DNA from: Rhabdophis nuchalis
Lineage: Eukaryota > Chordata > Lepidosauria > Squamata > Natricidae
Direction of reading: 5' to 3'
Assembly: GCA_039707465.1 (NCBI GenBank)
Contig: CM077644.1
Span: 198,249,962-198,313,961 of the forward strand
DNA: 64,000 nt
How positions within the stretch are numbered: the stretch's first letter is position 1; each line of letters opens with the position of its first letter. A program made the position numbers and the translations under genes. The notes below the pieces were generated by a model that made no database searches, was not told where the DNA came from, and worked only from the letters and a program-made list of their open reading frames with translations. Positions 6,191 through 61,138 of the stretch are shown in pieces.

Positions 6191-6313
6191 TATTTTGTTT
6201 ATTCAGAAGTTCCCTGAAATGAGAAAACTTGTACATTATATTGTAAATTTTCAGTTGGCTTAATATAGTATCTTCTTTAATATAGTATCTTCTTTCCTCA
6301 ATATTATTTGGGA

Positions 6314-7724
6314 CTATCTAGATTCGCGCCAGTCCGGCTTCCGACCCGGGCACAGTACCGAGACCGCATTGGTCGCATTGGTCGATGATCTCTGGAGGGC
6401 ACGAGATAGCGGATTTTCCTCTATCCTAGTCCTATTAGACCTCTCAGCGGCTTTTGATACCATCGACCATGGTATCCTATTACGCCGACTGGGGGGGTTG
6501 GGGCTGAGAGGCACCGTTCTACGATGGTTCTCGTCCTATCTCTCTGGTCAGTCACAATATGTGTTGACGGGGGGGAAGAGGTCGACTTCTAGATCCCTCT
6601 TATGTGGGGTCCCTCAGGGGTCGGTCCTCTCGCCCCTGCTGTTCAACATATATATGAAGCCGCTGGGTGAGATCATCCGTGGTTTCGGGGTGGGATATCA
6701 TCTGTACGCTGATGATACCCAGCTGTACATATCCACCCCGGACCACCCCAATGATGCCGTCGAGGTTATGTCCCGGTGCTTGGAGGCTGTACGGATCTGG
6801 ATGGGTAGTAACAAACTCAGGCTCAACCCGTCCAAGACTGAGTGGCTGTGGCTTCCGGCACCCCGTTTCAGCCAGATTATTCCAACTCTGGCCATTGGGG
6901 GCGAAACACCAGCCCCTGTGGAGAAGGCACGCAATCTAGGTGTCCTCCTGGACTCTCGGCTGACTATGGAAGACCAGGTGGCGGCCGTGGCCAGGGGGGC
7001 ATTCCATCAGGTACGCCTGATGCGCCAATTGCGTCCCTTACTGGATCGGGGAGCCTTACGCACAGTCACTCAAGCACTCGTCACATCTCGACTTGACTAT
7101 TGCAATGCTCTCTACATGGGGCTTCCCTTGAAGTGCACCCGAAGACTACAGTTAGTCCAGAACGCGGCCTCACGGATAATTACGGGAGCGCCTAAACACT
7201 CCCATATAACACCTGTCCTACGCGAGCTCCACTGGCTTCCTGTGGTCTTTCGGGTGCGCTTCAAGGTCCTAACAACCATCTTCAAAACACTCCATGGCTC
7301 GGGACCTAGCTATCTGCAAGACCGTCTCCTGCCCCATACATCCCTGGGACCGACACGCTCCCATAGAGAGGGCCTCCTCAGGGTGCCGTCGGTCGGGCAA
7401 TGTCGACTGGCGGCGCCCAGGGGGAGGGCCTTCTCTGTGGCAGGGCCGGCCCTTTGGAACGACCTGCCCCCTGAAATCCGCACCATTCCTGACCTCCGCC
7501 TCTTCCGCAAATGTCTTAAGACTCACTTCTTTCAACTAGCCGGCCTTGCGTAACCCCAGCACCGCCAATTATAAACGAGGGTTTTAAAAACGGTTACAAC
7601 ACAGGCATCTAATATCTATGTATTTGCATTTTGTATTTATTGATTTAATTCTATGTTCGCCGCCCCGAGTCCCTTGTTGTGAGATGGGAGCGGGTTATAA
7701 ATATGAAAAATAAATAAATAAATA
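6314..7724 (+). mobile_element. L2-type LINE, 5'-truncated, young
   Basis: Bounded by a 13-14 bp target duplication AATATTATTTGGGA at 6300-6313 and 7725-7738. It begins inside the RT domain, keeps an open frame to the natural stop at 7553, and has a 3' UTR ending CCGCCCCGAGTCCC..GAGCGGGTTATAAATATG and AAAT repeats. High GC and CpG content against the AT-rich flanks, and the intact frame, suggest recent insertion. Truncation at the 5' end is typical of target-primed reverse transcription. Confidence 0.92.
6315..7553 (+). CDS. L2-type LINE reverse transcriptase, C-terminal part
   Basis: The frame is open from the element's truncated 5' edge, so there is no authentic start codon; about 413 codons remain. 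In order it shows [16 protein letters not shown], the RT block [16 protein letters not shown], the GVPQGSVLSPLLFN block, the catalytic YADDTQLY motif (near 6706), the thumb region LGVLLDSRLTMEDQVAAVAR, and the conserved C-terminal RELHWLPVVFRVRFK..SYL and ALWNDLPPEIR segments. The N-terminal endonuclease and the first RT blocks are missing, so it cannot retrotranspose alone. Family assignment to L2 (CR1/L2 superfamily) rests on YADDTQLY and the C-terminal LRLFRKCLKTHFF signature. Confidence 0.9.
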   Translation, partial: YLDSRQSGFRPGHSTETALVALVDDLWRARDSGFSSILVLLDLSAAFDTIDHGILLRRLGGLGLRGTVLRWFSSYLSGQSQYVLTGGKRSTSRSLLCGVPQGSVLSPLLFNIYMKPLGEIIRGFGVGYHLYADDTQLYISTPDHPNDAVEVMSRCLEAVRIWMGSNKLRLNPSKTEWLWLPAPRFSQIIPTLAIGGETPAPVEKARNLGVLLDSRLTMEDQVAAVARGAFHQVRLMRQLRPLLDRGALRTVTQALVTSRLDYCNALYMGLPLKCTRRLQLVQNAASRIITGAPKHSHITPVLRELHWLPVVFRVRFKVLTTIFKTLHGSGPSYLQDRLLPHTSLGPTRSHREGLLRVPSVGQCRLAAPRGRAFSVAGPALWNDLPPEIRTIPDLRLFRKCLKTHFFQLAGLA

Positions 7725-14956: not shown

Positions 14957-17158
14957 GAGCTTTTAGTGTGTTCTATTTGCTATTATATTGCATGATTCCC
15001 ACAGTACAATATAGCATAAATCAAGAAGTTATGCTTTTGCTGCTTCTGATTTGTGATTTCAGCACTGGTCCTGCCCCCTTACTTGACTGAAACATTGTGA
15101 AAGATAGAAAGTATTCCTGAAGGTTTAATTAGCATAGCTAACATATCTTTGGATAAAGAATATATTGCAGTAGTTTTATATTTCTTAGTGCACCACCAAA
15201 AGAGCCATTGCGATGCTAAAATATTCAAGAAAATGTGCCGCATTAGAATAAATATGTAAAACATCAAGAAAGTGATTTAATCATATACTAACTAAGGGGA
15301 CTGCTGTGAACATTTCAAAAATGATTCAGAAGTGCTTTGGAAGTCAAGGGCAACTCTTTTCTGCTACTTGTTAATGCAACCTATACTTTCAGGCTTCTGC
15401 ACAATGTGTTAAGAGTTGAATTAAGTTTAGTAACTTGACTACTTCAAGCAGTAGCATTTTTTTTCAGATTTGGAAACCCAAATAAAAGAGACCCAGCATC
15501 GTATTAATAGAAATGATGGCTGTGCTTACATTAATCAAAATGAAAATCTTTCTTTCAAAACACTTTAAAAACTATATCTAGTACAACTGGCCGAAAATAG
15601 TTGTGGGTTGTTAATTGTTAAACCATTTAATTTAATCAATGACATTAGGGTCATTTTCTAAACATATGGCAACAGAAAAACCACTGGGACAACTCATATT
15701 GCAGTGGCATATGCTGCAAACCAACAGGCTGTTTGCCAGGGTTGGACTCAGGACAAGTGATGCGCTAAAGACAGTCCAAGAGTAGTGACTGTCAACCCTT
15801 CTACTGTTTTACCGACAAGACATTAAGGCTCCTTAAGTGATTAAAACTAAAGTTGAGTGAGGCAGTGAAAGAATTAAGGGCAAGTTAGCTAGGGGAAAAA
15901 TCTCTGTGGTGCCCCCTTCCACTTGCTGCTCACAACACATCCTTATTTTTCTTAATAGTTATCCTATGCATCCTTCACAATGTCCAATTTTAAAGAGGCA
16001 GGGTGAGGGTTTTTCCAAATCCTTTCTGTCTAATGTTCGAATACATGCAGTCTCCCATCCAGTGTCTCCCATCCAGTACTCAAATACATGCATCATTTTC
16101 TTTGCAATTTTGTAGAAAAACAAAATAAAGATCTTAAAAATAATCAATGAGGATGATTTAGGATCTGTTTTATGAAGATTCTGCTGGGTCACACCACTAT
16201 TTCTAAGCACATTCTGTGAATTATTTAGAAGTATTCAGCTTGATTAACTCTTAAACGGTGCTATACTACGAATACTCCCATGTGTATCATTTAATTGGCA
16301 CACTATTGGAAATTAACTCCATCAATAGAGTTAGATAGTATGGTATATAACTACAGTCTCAATGACTTTGCTATATGTTATAATATCAATCTGATCTTTT
16401 ATTATTTATTGATATAGTTTGATTTGCAACCAACATATCTATGGACCACACTGAATCAATATATTTTTGCATGTGTTTATATGTGCATTAATCTACACCC
16501 AGACACATATAATTCTTGTGCCCATTTTCAACCCATTATATTAAATGAAATTTAGTGTGGACATTTAAGGCTGAGCAGGATGAGCATGATAGCAATCTTG
16601 TGCATCACAAGCAAATTCATTTAAACTACCCTACTTTTTCTAAGGGGCAACTGCCTTCTGGAACAAGTTCTATGACTAGTATTGGACATAGAAACTTTCC
16701 ACCCTCCTTGGTCCATGCTCCATGAATTCTGCAAAGCTTATGTTTTAATTTTTTTCTGAAATGAGTTAAGAATGAAGAAATCAAAGTTTTTCTTGTTCTC
16801 CAAAATGGTCTTCAAAAACAGATCTATCACAAATGTTGTATAGATTCTTTAAGCAAGTAGACAGTTGAAGCTTGGAGAATAATACTGATTTTAATGACAA
16901 GTAGGAAAAAATTAGGGTAGTCCAAAACTTTTCATAAAAACTTGTATTTAGTCTATGTTTTTATACTGAATGGAAGAGTTTCAAGATTTCCACATCTGTG
17001 TGAATAAGCATGTCTTCCCATTCCATAGATATAAAATATTAAATCTTTATATTTTTGCATGATCCTTAATTAACTTGTTCTTGTTCTGTGGAAAGTATTT
17101 GCTCGTGATATTTAGTCAGTCTTTTTTTCTATAAAAATAAGTCAAGTGATTTAAGCAG
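14957..17158. other. No supported feature
   Basis: About 2.2 kb of AT-rich, unique-looking sequence. Short frames (15906-16115, 15959-16210) show no domain. Candidate host non-coding DNA. Confidence 0.5.
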
Positions 17159-17159
17159 C

Positions 17160-19595
17160 AGGGAGCTGAGCATTTTAACTACCCTGACATCAATTGGGAA
17201 ACAAACTCTGCACCAAGTGGAAGATCCAACAGGTTCCTAACAAACCTAGCAGACAACTTTGTTTCCCAAAAGGTAGAGAAGGGAACAAGGGGATCAGCAA
17301 TATTGGACTTAATTCTCACTAACAGAGAGGAAATGATAGAAGGTGTAGAAGCTACAGGAACTTTGGGGGCAAGCGATCATGAAATACTGGAATTCAACAT
17401 TATGCAAACAAAAGTAGTTGAACAAAGTCAAACTAGAGTCTTAGACTTCAAGAGAGCTAATTTCAACAAACTCAGAGAGAGCTTGGGAAGGATTCCATGG
17501 ATGAGAATCCTCAAGGGGAAAACAACTCAAGAAGCTTGGGAAATTTTGAAAAATGAGATTATAAAAGCCCAGTCCAGCGCAATACCAATGAAGAAGAAAA
17601 ATAACAGTTCCCAAAAGAAACCAGCATGGCTGCATAAAGAACTCTCTGACAAATTGAAAGACAAAAAGGATAAATATAAAAAGTGGAAAAAGGGGGACAT
17701 AACCAAGGCAAAATATCAGCAAATAGCCCGAGCCTGTAAAGATGAAGTGAGGAAAGCTAAGGCTCACAATGAAGAAAGGCTTGCCAAAAAAGTAAAAAAT
17801 AACAAAAAAAGCTTCTTCCAACATGTTAAAAATAAGAAAAAAGTTAAGGAAACAATTGGTCCACTGCTGGGAGAAAATGGCAAGAAGATGATAAGCAACA
17901 GGGAGAAAGCAGAACTATTTAACTCTTTCTTTGCATCTGTCTTTACACAAAGGGATAAAACAGTCCAATCAATCAAAAACAGCACCACAAATATCAGATT
18001 AGGAACACAAGTTGAAATAGAGAAGAAAATGGTAAGTGAGCACCTGTCTGCCCTGGACGAGTTCAAATCACCAGGACCGGATGGATTACACCCCAGGGTT
18101 CTGAAGGAACTGGCAGACGAGATCTCAGAACCACTGAACTATATCTTTCAGAGATCCTGGAGCACCGGGGAACTGCCAGAAGACTGGAAAAGAGCAGATG
18201 TGGTTCCCATCTTCAAAAAAGGAAAAAAAACAGATCCAGGAAACTATAGACCCATCAGCCTGACCTCAATACCAGGAAAGATTCTGGAAAAGATAATTAA
18301 ACAACAAATAAGTGAACACCTAGAAGCAAACAAAGTAATAGCCAAAAGCCAACATGGGTTTGTCAAAAACAGATCATGCCAGACGAATCTAATTGCATTC
18401 TTTGACAAAGTAACAAAATCAGTGGACCAGAGGAATGCTGTTGATATAATTTACCTGGACTTCAGTAAGGCATTTGATAAAGTAGACCATAACCTACTAT
18501 TAGATAAAGTAGAAAATTGTGGGTTAGACAGCACCACCACCAAATGGATTCGTAACTGGCTGACCAACCGCACTCAACGTGTAGTCCTCAATGGAACTGC
18601 ATCTACATGGAAGGAAGTATGCAGTGGAGTCCCCCAAGGCTCTGTTTTAGGCCCAGTACTCTTTAACATCTTCATCAACGATTTGGATGAGGGGATAAAT
18701 GGGGAACTCATCAAATTCGCAGACGACACCAAGCTGGCAGGAATAGCCAACACTCCAGAAGATAGGCTTAAGATACAGAAGGATCTAGACAAACTTGAAC
18801 ATTGGGCACTGTCTAATAAAATGAAATTCAATTGTGAAAAAAGTAAGGTCCTACATATAGGCAAGAAAAACCAAATGCACAAGTACAGTATAGGTGGTAC
18901 CTTGCTCAATAGTAGCAACTGTGAGAGGGATCTCGGAATCCTAGTGGACAACCATTTAAATATGAGCCAGCAGTGTGCAGCAGCTGCCAAAAAAGCCAAC
19001 ACAGTTCTAGGCTGCATCAACAGAGGGATAGAATCTAGATCGCGTGAAGTGTTAATGCCACTGTATAGTGCCTTGGTAAGGCCACACTTGGAATACTGCA
19101 TACAGTTTTGGTCGCCACGATGTAGAAAAGACGTGGAGACTCTGGAAAGAGTGCAAAGAAGAGCAACCAAGATGATTAGAGGACTGGAGACTAAGACATA
19201 TGAAGAACGGCTGCAGGAACTGGGTATGTCTAGTTTGATGAAGAGAAGGACCAGGGGAGACATGATAGCAGTGTTCCGATATCTCAGAGGGTGCCACAAA
19301 GAAGAGGGAGTCAAACTTTTCTCCAAGACACCTGGGGGCAGGACAAGGAGCAATGGGTGGAAACTAACCAAGGAGAGAAGCAACTTAGAACTAAGGAGAA
19401 ATTTCCTAACAGTAAGAACAATTAACCTCTGGAACAGCTTGCCTCCAGCAGTTGTGAATGCCCCAACCCTGGAAGTCTTTAAAAAGATGTTAGACAGCCA
19501 TTTGTCTGAAATGGTATAAGATTCCTGCCCATGCAGGGGGTTGGACCAGAAGACCTACAAGGTCCCTTCCAACTCTGCTATTGTATTGTATTACA
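17160..19595 (+). mobile_element. CR1 LINE, 5'-truncated with intact frame
   Basis: Begins in the endonuclease coding region, contains an uninterrupted pol frame to the stop at 19519, then the compact CR1 3' UTR (GGGGGTTGGACCAGAAGACC, AAGGTCCCTTCCAACTCTGC) and a short tail of TATTG units. It is the best-preserved CR1 in the window and a reference for the fragments at 3.4, 5.2-6.0, 28.0, 34.6, 55.0, 58.8 and 63.1 kb. Only the 5' UTR, ORF1 and most of the endonuclease are missing. Confidence 0.93.
17171..19519 (+). CDS. CR1 endonuclease (C-term) and reverse transcriptase
   Basis: The frame is open from 17171, upstream of the first ATG at 17303, because the copy is 5'-truncated: FNYPDINW and LDLILTNRE followed by GASDHEILEF are the end of the APE endonuclease domain (the SDH carries a catalytic His). 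Counting from the ATG at 17303, RT motifs are YLDFSKAFDKVDH (about residue 384), GVPQGSVLGPVLFNIF (about 442), and FADDTKLAG (about 471, catalytic DD). The C-terminal domain includes RPHLEYCIQFWSP, ERVQRRATKMIRGL and RTINLWNSLPPAVV. No frameshift or stop in about 783 codons, so the copy is young; it is not expected to be autonomous. Confidence 0.93.
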   Translation, partial: HFNYPDINWETNSAPSGRSNRFLTNLADNFVSQKVEKGTRGSAILDLILTNREEMIEGVEATGTLGASDHEILEFNIMQTKVVEQSQTRVLDFKRANFNKLRESLGRIPWMRILKGKTTQEAWEILKNEIIKAQSSAIPMKKKNNSSQKKPAWLHKELSDKLKDKKDKYKKWKKGDITKAKYQQIARACKDEVRKAKAHNEERLAKKVKNNKKSFFQHVKNKKKVKETIGPLLGENGKKMISNREKAELFNSFFASVFTQRDKTVQSIKNSTTNIRLGTQVEIEKKMVSEHLSALDEFKSPGPDGLHPRVLKELADEISEPLNYIFQRSWSTGELPEDWKRADVVPIFKKGKKTDPGNYRPISLTSIPGKILEKIIKQQISEHLEANKVIAKSQHGFVKNRSCQTNLIAFFDKVTKSVDQRNAVDIIYLDFSKAFDKVDHNLLLDKVENCGLDSTTTKWIRNWLTNRTQRVVLNGTASTWKEVCSGVPQGSVLGPVLFNIFINDLDEGINGELIKFADDTKLAGIANTPEDRLKIQKDLDKLEHWALSNKMKFNCEKSKVLHIGKKNQMHKYSIGGTLLNSSNCERDLGILVDNHLNMSQQCAAAAKKANTVLGCINRGIESRSREVLMPLYSALVRPHLEYCIQFWSPRCRKDVETLERVQRRATKMIRGLETKTYEERLQELGMSSLMKRRTRGDMIAVFRYLRGCHKEEGVKLFSKTPGGRTRSNGWKLTKERSNLELRRNFLTVRTINLWNSLPPAVVNAPTLEVFKKMLDSHLSEMV

Positions 19596-19888: not shown

Positions 19889-21440
19889 ATTTATACCCCG
19901 CCCTTCTCCACAGAGGACCCAGGGCGGCGCACAGGAAATTTAAAAAACATACAAAAATACAATAAATATAATTTAAAAAACTATTAAATAACCCCATCCT
20001 GCGCTAAAACCAAATTTTTAAAAACCCAATTTAAAACTATCTTAAGTCCCCAAGGGAGGTTAGGCTAGGCCGGCTTGTTGAAACAGATATGTCTTAAGAC
20101 ATTGGCGGAAGAGGCGGAGGTCGGCGATGGTACGTAATTCAGGGGGTAGGTCATTCCAAAGGGCTGGCCCCGCCACAGAGAAGGCTCTTCCCCTGGGTGT
20201 CGCCAGTCGGCATTGTCCGGCCGACGGTACCCTGAGGAGGCCCTCTCTGTGGGAGCGGATTGGTCTGAGGGATGTATGGGGCAGGAGGCGGTCTCGCATA
20301 TAACTAGGCCCCAAGCCATGGAGCGCTTTGAAGATGGTAGTCAAAACCTTGAAGCGCACTCGAAAGGCCACAGGAAGCCAATGCAGCTCGCGCAGGATCG
20401 GTGTTATGTGGGAGCATCTAGTGGCTCCCATAATCACCCGCGCGGCTGCGTTTTGGACTAGCTGTAGCTTTCGAGTGCACCTCAAGGGAAGCCCCATGTA
20501 GAGAGTATTACAGTAGTCGAGTCGGGACGTCACGAGTGCTTGAGTGACTGTGCGTAGGGCAGCCCGGTCCAGTAAGGGGCGCAATTGGCGCATCAGGCGA
20601 ACCTGATGGAACGCCCCCCTGGCCACGGCTGCCACATGGTCCTCCATGGACAGCCGGGAATTCAGGAGGACACCCAAATTGCGCGCCCTCTCCACGGGGG
20701 CCAGTGTTTCGCCCCCAATGGCCAGAGTTGGAGTGATCTGGCTGAACCGGGGTGCCGGAAACCACAGCCACTCAGTCTTGGCAGGGTTGAGTTTGAGTTT
20801 GTTACCACCCATCCAGATCCGTACGGCTTCCAGACACCGGGACAGCACTTCGGCGGCATCGTTGGGGTGGTTTGGGGTGGATATGTACAACTGAGTGTCA
20901 TCAGCGTACAGGTGGTACTCCACCCCAAAACCACGGATGATCTCACCCAGCGGCTTCATATATGTGTTGAAAAGGAGGGGCGAGAGGACCGACCCCTGAG
21001 GAACCCCACATAGGAGAGGCCTCGAGGTCGACCTCTGCCCTCCCGTCAACACATATTGCGACCGACCAGAGAGGTAGGACGAGAACCACCGCAGAACGGT
21101 GCCTCCCAGCCCCAACCCCCCCCCAGTCGGTGCAATAGGATACCATGGTCGATGGTATCAAAAGCCGCCGAGAGATCTAATAGGACTAGGATAGAGGAAT
21201 ACCCTCTATCCCGCGCCCTCCAGAGATCATCAACCAACGCGACCAATGCCGTCTCGGTACTGTGACCGGGCCGGAAGCCGGACTGGCGCGGGTCAAGATA
21301 ATCAACTTCCTCCAGGTGTCGCGGAAACTGTTGGGCTACCACACTCTCGACAACCTTCACTAAAAAGTGAAGGTTGGAGACCGGACGATAGTTCTCTAGT
21401 AAAGCTGGGTCCAGGGACGGCTTCTTGAGGAGGGGCCTTT
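19852..21440 (-). mobile_element. L2-type LINE, 5'-truncated, minus strand
   Basis: Read on the minus strand it starts at AGGCCCCTCCTCAAGAAGCC (RT N-terminal part), continues through the RT and C-terminal domain to the stop near 20060, and ends with the GCGCCGCCCTGGGTCC hairpin motif and TAAA repeats at 19852-19886. About 1.6 kb. Very similar to the elements at 6.3 and 40.8 kb. No clear target duplication. Confidence 0.9.
20060..21360 (-). pseudogene. L2-type reverse transcriptase with one frameshift
   Basis: Two overlapping frames make up one protein: 21360-21046 carries [36 protein letters not shown] and [16 protein letters not shown]; 21115-20060 carries GVPQGSVLSPLLFN, YADDTQLYIST, the thumb region and the C-terminal RELHWLPVAFRVRFK..ALWNDLPPELR. 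The frame changes in the homopolymer of about nine C at 21117-21125 (plus strand), so one indel separates them. Apart from this the coding sequence is intact. N-terminal endonuclease absent through 5' truncation. Confidence 0.9.
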
Positions 21441-40104: not shown

Positions 40105-40755
40105 TGCCTGTCCATAAACAAGCTTTCGGACTTGGTTCTTCCCCTAGGTTTTTGGTTTAGGATTAGAACACATGGGTTAGGCATTCTAAAACAAATACAA
40201 AATTGGCTATGTCATACTGCAGATCATCCCATTATCAACCCAGTGTTATTTATTATTGGATCCTTCTTTGTTCTCACTACATCTAATTTCAAATGTGTCT
40301 AATAGACTTCTGTCAAATTGGGTTCATTGGGAACCCTCATTCAGTTAATCACAGCTTAATCCAAGTTAGGTTTTAGCTAAACATAGAGAATAGCATCTCA
40401 ATCTATCTGAGAACATCAGCTATTTCACAGTCATTCTCCTTACCTATAGATGCACTTTTTGCATTTACAGGTTTTCACTCTATAATCTCAACATGGCTAT
40501 GGTGGAAGGAGATTACTGGAGTACCACATCACACATGCATGTTAATTTACTTAAAATTGAAAGTGTACATAAAAATGGTTTACCCAGCAGCACTGCATGG
40601 CATCAGCCAGAAATCAGATACTCATAAACATTGGATATATAAGCCTTCATGTTGAGCAGAAGCAATAAAGAGATAAATAGAAGTTTATTTTTAAACTGTG
40701 TGGAGGAAATTAAGTATTTGAGATTGTACTGCAATTATGTTATTGGAACCTTGTA
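40105..40755. other. No supported feature
   Basis: AT-rich sequence upstream of the large L2-type insertion. Confidence 0.5.
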
Positions 40756-40761
40756 ACTCAG

Positions 40762-42918
40762 GTGTTCACTTTGGAGAGAGGAATTGTAGTCATGGGGGAC
40801 TTTAATCTGCCATCGTTGGGCGAATCATCCGAGGCAGCTCGGGAGTTCATGGCCTCCATGACGGTCATGGACCTGACCCAACTAATTCAAGGCCCCACCC
40901 ACGAGGGTGGACATACGCCGGATCTCATCTTTGTCTCGGGCCAATGGAAGAGTGATCTGGGTATAGGGGATATAGTCATCACACCCTTGTCATGGTCAGA
41001 CCACTCACTTCTCCGACTCGACCTTCCGACCGCTACTCCCCGTCGCGGGGAGGCGGAACCAGAACTTCCTATCTGGTTTCGCCCCAGGCGCCTGATGGAC
41101 CCTGTTGGGTTCCAGACGGCGCTTGGGCCACTTCCTGTACCCCTGACCCACGCCCCGATGGAGGACCTCGTGGCCGCATGGAATACTGCGACCACGGGAG
41201 CCTTGGATCGGGTCGCGCCCTTGCGGCCTCTCTTGCGGCGCCGAGCCGCCCCGGCTCCTTGGTTCACCGAGGAGCTGAGGGCGATGAAACGCTGCAAGAG
41301 ATGCCTAGAGGGAAGATGGAGGGCTACTCGCTCCGAATCTGACCGGACACAGGTAAGAGCCCATTTACGGACTTACATTGTGGCGCTGAGAGTGGCCAAA
41401 CGCCATCATTGCGCCACTCTCATAGCATCCGCAGAAAACCACCCTGCCGCCCTGTTTAGGGTGACCCGTTCCCTCCTGCAACAGAGGGTGCGGGAAGCCC
41501 CGCTACAGGGTAGAGCAGAGGAATTTGTGACTTTTCTGCAGGACAAAACCGCTCAGATACGGAACGAGTTAGCCCCCATTCGTGGCCCAGTGGGATGCCA
41601 CGAGGCTGATCTTGTTTGGGAGGAATTTGACTCCGTTGCTTCCGAGGATATGGACAGGTTACGTGGACGACTGCGAGCCACCACATGTTTATTGGACCCG
41701 TGTCCCTCCTGGCTTGTACTGGCATCCTGGGAGGTGACACGAGGCTGGCTCCAAGAGGTTGTCAACGCTTCTTTAAGTGAGGGTTCCTTGCCTGCTTCCC
41801 TAAAAGAGGCCATGGTGAGGCCCCTCCTTAAGAAGCCCTCTTTGGACCCAGCTCTTTTAACCAACTATCGTCCCGTCTCCAACCTTCCCTTTCTGGCGAA
41901 GGTTGTTGAGAGTGTGGTGGCACAACAGTTTCCCCGTCACCTGGAGGAAGTTGATTATCTAGACCCGCGCCAGTCCGGCTTTCGGCCCGGGCATAGCACC
42001 GAGACGGCATTGGTCGCGTTGGTGGATGATCTCTGGAGGGCCAGAGATGGGGGTTGTTCCTCCATCCTGGTCCTATTAGACCTCTCGGCGGCTTTCGATA
42101 CCATCGACCATGGTATCCTATTGCATCGGCTGGGGGGGTTGGGAGTGGGAGGCACCGTTTTACAGTGGTTCTCCTCCTACCTCTCTGGCCGATCGCAATT
42201 TGTGTTGGCAGGAGAGCAGAGGTCGACCCCGAGACCCCTCACATGTGGGGTGCCTCAGGGGTCGGTCCTCTCGCCTCTCTTGTTTAATGCATACATGAAG
42301 CCGCTGGGTGAGATCATCCGTGGTTTCGGGGTAGAGTACCATCTCTACGCTGATGATACTCAGCTGTATATATCTACCCCAAACCACCCCAACGATGCCA
42401 TAGCGGTGATGTGCCAGTGCCTGGAAGCCGTGCGGATCTGGATGGGAAGTAACGGACTCAGGCTCAACCCGACCAAGACCGAGTGGCTGTGGTTTCCGGC
42501 TGCCCGATTCAACCAGCTTTCTCCAACGCTGGCCATAGGGGGCGAACATCTTGCCCCTGTGGATGGGGCGCGCAATTTGGGAGTCCTCCTGGATACCCGG
42601 CTGTCTATGGAAGAGCAAGTGACAGCCGTGGCCAGGAGGGCGTTTTACCAGGTTCGCCTGGTTCGCCAATTGCGCCCCCTATTGGATCGGGACGCCCTTC
42701 GCACAGTCACTCATGCCCTCGTGACATCCCGACTGGACTACTGTAACTCTCTCTACATGGGGCTCCCCTTGAGGTGCACCCGGAGGCTTCAGTTAGTTCA
42801 GAATGCAGCCGCGCGAGCAATTATGGGAACCACTAGGTTTAACACCGCTCTTGCGCGAGCTGCACTGGCTGCCTGTCGTCTTCCGGGTGCGCTTCAAGGT
42901 GTTAGTTATCATCTTTAA
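40762..42918 (+). pseudogene. L2 endonuclease/reverse transcriptase, frame-shifted near C-terminus
   Basis: About 718 codons: VVMGDFNLPSLG at residues 10-21 and SWSDHSLLRLDL near 78 are the last two catalytic blocks of an APE-type endonuclease (D, N; then DH). A linker follows, then [53 protein letters not shown] (about 439), GVPQGSVLSPLLFN, YADDTQLY (about 528). The natural frame is lost near 42840, where a short deletion replaces the SHITP-type codons; the true C-terminus continues in the frame 42803-43186. The start is a truncation edge, not a real initiator. Confidence 0.92.
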
Positions 42919-60762: not shown

Positions 60763-60768
60763 TATATG
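60714..60768 (+). repeat. (TA)n / (TACA)n microsatellite
   Basis: TA and CATA units; adjoins the A/T-rich tail of the SINE-like unit. Confidence 0.9.
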
Positions 60769-60774
60769 TTAAGT

Positions 60775-60946
60775 TTTTTATTTTTTTATTTTTTTAAGGG
60801 CTGATTAATAAATAAGAGACCAGGATGGATCCATTTCGGGCTTATTAGCCCTCTTCAGCTGGCCATACTACCTCCACTGGGATTTGAACCGGCACTCTCC
60901 AGCATATCAAGCAAGGCTCTCTATGCTTTGAGCTATCCAGCTTCCC
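60775..60946 (-). mobile_element. tRNA-headed SINE-like unit with hammerhead
   Basis: Minus strand: starts GGAAGCTGGATAGCTCAAAG (tRNA-like, A box at 60926-60939, about +7), B box GGTTCAAATCC at 60880-60890 (about +56), normal tRNA spacing. The following 60 nt contain a hammerhead ribozyme (see next entry), then TTATTTATTAATCAGCCC and a TAAAAAA-repeat tail ending about 60775. Architecture is pol III head, ribozyme, A-rich tail. Schistosome Sm-alpha is a known SINE-like precedent for a pol III promoter plus hammerhead. Confidence 0.7.
60818..60864 (-). ncRNA. Hammerhead ribozyme, type I layout
   Basis: Minus strand from 60864: stem I 5' GGCCAG, core CTGAAGA (C3-U4-G5-A6-N7-G8-A9), stem II GGGC-TAATAA-GCCC, core GAAA (G12-A13-A14-A15.1), stem III ATGG-AT-CCAT, C17, then stem I 3' CTGGTC. 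All invariant nucleotides are present; position 7 is free in hammerheads. Stem I has six pairs (one G-U), stem II four G-C/C-G pairs. Predicted cleavage lies after C17 at 60824. Stem III is a self-complementary ATGGATCCAT, as in hammerheads that act best as dimers. Activity is not shown. Confidence 0.85.
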
Positions 60947-61138
60947 CTGATTACATCAGCCTTTACAGGACTATTGAATGAGAGAATATATTTACAACTC
61001 CTGTTCGGCCCCTTTTTTAAGGGAGGAGACAACTGTCATCCTTCTCTGCCTTTCAGCTCAACCTAGAGACCATCTGGGCAGAGAGCTCATGAGATTACTG
61101 TTGAATTTTAGATATGTGTTAAGGTTTTTTTTTGTTTT

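Follow-up and report, generated by a model that had tools for sequence, protein, structure and literature searches.

A 64,000-nt stretch of the Rhabdophis nuchalis genome (hereafter 'the window') carries on its minus strand what reads as a complete hammerhead ribozyme downstream of pol III promoter-like motifs, which raises the question of whether the ribozyme is genuine and what kind of element carries it. The sequence-only reading had proposed a SINE-like unit at 60775-60946, made up of a tRNA-like promoter, the hammerhead and an A/T-rich tail. The answer we prefer, with a probability of roughly 80%, is that the copy in the window is a retrozyme of the metazoan kind: a short and presumably non-coding retroelement that carries a type I hammerhead, would pass through an RNA circle and would be copied by a Penelope-like element (PLE). 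The relevant features are as follows, the parts of the hammerhead being read directly from the sequence:

60767..61129, minus strand: probable retrozyme copy, subfamily A, about one lap of a circular unit of about 333 bp, with zone I at both ends
61111..61123, minus strand: zone I, CTTAACACATATC, a 3'-end zone (58 of 141 copies end here)
60978..60990, minus strand: zone II, TATATTCTCTCAT, second 3'-end zone (64 of 141 copies end here)
60922..60935, minus strand: weak A-box candidate TAGCTCAAAGCATA (pattern with up to 2 mismatches; tRNA models give no confirmation)
60880..60890, minus strand: B-box-like sequence GGTTCAAATCC (identity 0.88 among 7 subfamily units)
60818..60864, minus strand: type I hammerhead ribozyme (sequence, descriptor, sub-cut-off Rfam HH9 match and covariation in copies; predicted cut 60824/60823)
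60864-60859, minus strand: stem I, 5' strand, GGCCAG
60858-60852, minus strand: core CTGAAGA
60851-60848 and 60841-60838, minus strand: stem II, GGGC/GCCC, loop TAATAA
60837-60834, minus strand: core GAAA
60825..60834, minus strand: stem III palindrome AUGGAUCCAU, which could pair between two RNAs (perfect palindrome in the 5 subfamily types computed)
60824, minus strand: C17
60823-60818, minus strand: stem I, 3' strand, CTGGTC
60773-60767, minus strand: CTTAACA (zone I) again at the copy end

The hammerhead and its genomic copies

The minus-strand hammerhead at 60864-60818 is genuine, with all core bases and three stems present. The invariant nucleotides, the GGGC/GCCC stem II with its TAATAA loop, the self-complementary stem III and the six-pair stem I originally claimed for it were all located on this strand, and the proposed cleavage position, 60824/60823, agrees with the layout of the stems and C17. 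Our hammerhead descriptor finds this single site in the window; run over both strands of first-order Markov sequence totalling 20 Mb, it gives 2, a rate of about 0.006 for every 64 kb. The covariance-model check gave a divided result: the best Rfam match, Hammerhead_HH9 (RF02275; 60876-60801, minus strand, model positions 1-77 of 77), has an E-value of 9.8e-07 for a 701-base stretch and 8.9e-05 for the whole window, but its 34.0 bits lie under the 52-bit cut-off, and at gathering thresholds Rfam has zero matches anywhere in the window. Across eight loci, HH9 produced 17 matches in seven, at 28.0–35.7 bits; locus L022, with intact hammerheads inside, has no HH9 match at an E-value of 0.01. Given that even the maximum of 35.7 bits in these loci stays short of the cut-off, we rejected membership in HH9, an amniote intronic family. 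HH9 marks a conserved intron site, whereas the hammerhead here sits in a mobile repeat. Counting against the hammerhead, the 76-mer when folded freely has a minimum-energy structure other than that of a hammerhead, with an unremarkable energy (z = -0.45).

The genome searched comprises 1.92 Gb in 348 contigs, with the window on contig 2. The beta-keratin family PF02422, which is not known outside reptiles and birds, has 31 matches in it, all in a cluster on contig 20 (1441624-1814525). A 301-base query, for which 40 of the 2485 candidates from a first look were scored, gave at least 74 genome matches; many of these matches are 97–99% identical across approximately the first 210 bases. An exact hammerhead pattern has 11,045 matches genome-wide (5463 + 5582), and a second one, covering the stem III palindrome and C17, has 17,273 (8646 + 8627), each with 0 for the reversed control; the two sets overlap and the counts are not additive. 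The genome holds thousands of copies of a short mobile hammerhead element. Scans of viral and prokaryote collections with a hammerhead pattern returned 0 and 0 matches.

Our closer sample of 58 loci (L001-L028 and L030-L059, some overlapping each other) is non-random, with 28 chosen by likeness to the window copy and 30 being the first matches on contig 1. It contains 106 intact-core hammerheads in distinct contexts, in 41 distinct 47-mer versions. Invariance of the core among these copies is no proof of selection, since the core was the search condition; the stems were not. Among the 41 versions, 94.6% of 574 stem cells are paired, as compared to 19.3–41.1% with slid partners, and double changes occur at 6 of 14 stem pairs (61 cells), spread over all three stems. 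Stem II appears as GGGC/GCCC, AGGC/GCCU, GAGC/GCUC or GGAC/GUCC, stem III is chiefly UGGAUCCA or UAGAUCUA, and pair 33-38 in stem III is A-U in 20 versions and G-C in 19. Shuffle tests are inflated by relatedness among the rows. Of 500 shuffles, 0 reached the observed number of paired cells, that of doubly changed cells or the covariation score; 15 reached the observed number of doubly changed pairs, and 315 that of further pair types. For whole units of seven subfamilies, 15 of 74 predicted pairs are doubly changed, the structure having been predicted from the same alignment. Both expectations stated at the outset, further copies in the genome and compensatory changes in the stems, are strongly borne out.

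A circularly permuted unit and its candidate promoter

Adjacent hammerheads are regularly spaced. Of 24 intervals between them, 22 measure 330–347 bp, at least one of which, in L014, joins two subfamilies; the two longer intervals hold foreign or inverted pieces. For orientation, the schistosome Sm-alpha repeat is 335 bp in size. The seven subfamily units find a single copy in the window, at 60767..61129, which is 97.0% identical to a tandem unit across 338 bases. We read it as about one lap because its start and end both fall in the CCCTTAAAAACTTAACACATATC stretch, through which tandem copies read seamlessly. A direct repeat around the copy (12 of 13 bases) was considered as a target-site duplication and rejected, as the tandem copies identify it as the unit's own junction. 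The proposed SINE at 60775-60946 gives way to a longer copy, at approximately 61129-60767, that is about one lap of a circularly permuted unit. What had been taken for an A/T-rich tail consists of the CTTAACA zone, which belongs to the unit itself, and the (TA)n that it leads into. Judging from these alignments, the element is a circularly permuted unit of approximately 330–347 bp, with several subfamilies; some copies are arrayed head to tail, and others make up a whole lap or part of one. Two hallmarks of metazoan non-LTR retrozymes are found together in it: a type I hammerhead with an intact core, and tandem, hammerhead-bounded units of about 170–400 bp.

When the seven units are compared in pairs, mean identity is 0.73 overall; it reaches 0.86 for the hammerhead, 0.88 for the B box and 0.92 for 15 bases of zone I, but 0.63 for the tRNA-like stretch upstream of the B box. 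The claimed tRNA-like pol III promoter holds in part: the subfamilies have kept the B box, but the A-box candidate is a weak one, and tRNA models find no match. Similarly, the B box does lie just upstream of the hammerhead, but GGTTCAAATCC ends 15 nt upstream of stem I rather than the 20–30 nt first given. ARAGORN finds zero tRNAs, and a tRNA origin was set aside as unsupported: neither ARAGORN nor Rfam reports one, and relaxed ARAGORN calls on the units scatter across both strands. Absence of TTTT was likewise discarded as a sign of pol III, since it is absent from 5 of 7 units and also from 19–39% of shuffles. The conserved B box could perhaps direct transcription by pol III. Elsewhere in the unit, a hairpin CTCTGCC ... 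GGCAGAG (61083-61044, minus strand) is kept among the seven subfamily units, with some double changes in the region, and may be a candidate site bound by the copying enzyme.

Copy ends and a probable Penelope-like helper

For the analysis of ends we used 141 distinct copies, drawn from 43 loci. The two 3'-end zones together account for 122 of the 141 copies. With 5 ends of each kind left out because query length had set them, 136 remain on either side; tested against a uniform distribution, chi-square is 358.8 on the 3' side and 50.5 on the 5' side. The 5' ends are much less clustered than the 3' ends, yet non-uniform. A simple-repeat run of at least 12 lies in 74 of 141 3' flanks and in 11 of 141 5' flanks, against a background of 2.1%. 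The 3' ends frequently adjoin (TA)n or (CA)n, and the terminal bases frequently continue the flanking repeat (AACACACA into cacaca, AATTCTCT into ctctct), which suggests that repeat DNA primes copying through matching bases; alternatively, the simple repeats may in part have expanded after insertion. Zone II joined to (TA)n, AATATTCTCTCATATATATA, occurs 959 times genome-wide (0 for the reversed control). Two results count against the retrozyme reading: the cut site joined to (TA)n has 0 occurrences genome-wide, leaving no genomic cleavage footprint, and 1 of 141 copies ends exactly at the cut site, which is not above chance.

Could the element simply be a satellite DNA whose tandem copies recombined, so that it spread with no RNA step? 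Multi-unit arrays, such as those at L030, L044 and L054, would fit. However, 94 of 141 are shorter than 0.95 unit and scattered, random-looking 5' ends stand beside fixed 3' ends, and the covariation of the stems calls for selection on RNA, so we regard satellite spread as very unlikely. Under the retrozyme reading, copies longer than one lap (35 of 141 exceed 1.05 units) would come from repeated passage round a circle; RNA of tandem DNA could be an alternative source, which counts against that reading.

Neighbouring copies within 60 bp of each other comprise 31 head-to-head, 14 tail-to-tail and 12 same-direction pairs. The gaps of head-to-head pairs lie between -7 and +13 in 29 of 31, and 25 of the 31 join copies of the same subfamily (all 25 with gaps of -7 to +13), as compared to 1 of 14 tail-to-tail pairs. 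Judging by these junctions, same-subfamily head-to-head joints look like single events, and tail-to-tail joints look like separate insertions at one repeat. This architecture bears on the view that a LINE moves the unit as it would any other tRNA-derived SINE, the hammerhead being a passenger. The conserved B box would suit such an origin, as would the LINE-type reverse transcriptase frames in the window: four long frames there, at 17150-19516, 40714-42915 and 6264-7550 (plus strand) and 20063-21157 (minus strand), match RVT_1 and are probably LINEs. A SINE should have a single fixed 5' start and a single 3' tail; what we find instead is scattered 5' ends, two 3'-end zones, circular permutation, copies of several laps and head-to-head pairs, together with covarying stems and no tRNA match. 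We consider a SINE very unlikely.

PLEs are present in the same genome. With 150 of its 622 candidates scored, a generic reverse transcriptase motif has at least 150 hits, whose open frames reach 1597 codons; among these 150 listed hits the PLE pairs within 6.5 kb are 11 head-to-head, 7 tandem and 0 tail-to-tail. A search for GIY-YIG was rejected as a route to PLEs, as its sole match is probably an SLX1 exon. On contig 3 (7437900-7441600; L060), a PLE stands in perfect-looking tandem with a period of 2972 and a long open reading frame, and the array looks recent. This copy scores 61.8 bits for RVT_1 and 19.9 bits for GIY-YIG, the latter under the 22.6 cut-off. Near the start of its frame lies a putative minimal hammerhead of the kind that PLEs carry; Rfam gives this candidate no score in the PLE copy. 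Of the 64 loci inspected, 24 contain PLE pieces, 52 in all. The end falls at PLE positions 2155-2160 in 20 pieces (11 with a repeat in the following 40 bases), at 2117-2134 in 14 (12 of them closely followed by a repeat) and elsewhere in 18 (1 with a repeat). Retrozymes lie beside PLE ends in shared repeats at L009, L062 and L063; the window itself has no PLE pieces at an E-value of 1e-4. As the genome's PLEs share their insertion architecture with the retrozyme, a PLE is the likely supplier of its copying enzyme.

The same parallels could mean that the unit is a shrunken PLE derivative that keeps a hammerhead-bearing pseudo-LTR, rather than an independent retrozyme: targets and end architecture are common to both, both have type I hammerheads, and the two are often neighbours. 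However, the unit, at under 350 bp, has neither the reverse transcriptase nor the GIY-YIG endonuclease of a PLE and does not significantly resemble the PLE copy, where the best match is 12 nt long (E-value 6.4, for the one PLE family examined); the putative PLE hammerhead belongs to the minimal class. Descent from a PLE is thus very unlikely. The earlier pointers to Sm-alpha and Penelope-like elements were apt.

For the retrozyme, we infer a life cycle that includes cleavage, RNA circles, pol III transcription and dependence on a PLE. Retrozyme RNA would be transcribed, a step for which pol III may use the conserved B box. In five subfamily types, the palindromic stem III is computed at -0.1 to +1.7 kcal/mol in the monomer and -9.8 to -13.8 kcal/mol between two RNAs; being stable between two RNAs and near-worthless in one, it makes it likely, on this model and by analogy with axolotl, that two hammerheads cut together. 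Two hammerheads joined via stem III would thus cut the RNA to unit length, and a host ligase would close it into a circle, round which a PLE reverse transcriptase would travel once, several times or only part of the way. Copying would start in one of the two zones, on DNA of a simple repeat that matches a few bases there, and head-to-head pairs would arise from copying on both target strands.

Known parallels and the place of a probable reptile retrozyme

The closest parallels are the axolotl retrozymes Rtz_331 and Rtz_353, of 331 and 353 bp as given in excerpts of PMC7229834, as compared to 330–347 bp here. By the same excerpts, they share with our unit the type I hammerhead, a helix III that is either weak or a palindrome, the tandem arrangement of copies and the presence of PLEs in the genome; they have no coding region, and the unit here is under 350 bp. 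Their dimers are cut much better, and circles occur. Unlike them, the present element has a reptile host, a conserved B box, two 3'-end zones at repeats and head-to-head pairs, and is known here from DNA. Sm-alpha of schistosomes, in the part of PMC2576457 consulted, likewise has a type I hammerhead downstream of pol III boxes A and B; its host differs, the A box here is weak, and the likeness is one of description, not of sequence alignment. For the Anolis PLE Poseidon PAc, excerpts of PMC11167929 describe tandem copies, two internal sites at which copying starts, extension of both DNA strands in vitro, and a hammerhead, mutants of which insert unaffected in vitro, with zero reads ending at the cut site; these last two results count against our reading. 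Tandem copies, two internal 3'-end sites and a hammerhead are found here too, and both strands would be extended; in contrast, the retrozyme has no reverse transcriptase and its hammerhead is of another class.

According to partial text of a 2020 review (PMC7761336), retrozymes seem promoterless, and metazoan ones have no motif pointing to a helper; excerpts of PMC9695139 report a promoter for a plant retrozyme. Against the picture in the former, the copies here record a helper's fingerprint, and the conserved B box is a candidate promoter. Excerpts of PMC6155905 and PMC7229834 place retrozymes in invertebrates and amphibians, and regard the hammerheads of reptiles, birds and mammals as motifs that stand alone or have been tamed. 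Our partial coverage of the literature yielded no reptile retrozyme; PMC7229834 scanned vertebrate_other genomes, and its supplements may list reptile hits. A mobile high-copy reptile family would, if true, fill this gap and provide natural small RNA circles in an amniote. The full picture, in which an amniote harbours a recently active high-copy retrozyme with a pol III-type promoter, a hammerhead paired through its palindrome, an RNA circle and PLE copying from two zones, repeat-primed on both strands, we put forward tentatively, at somewhat under even odds. The conserved intronic hammerheads of birds and mammals could have been tamed from a lineage of this sort.
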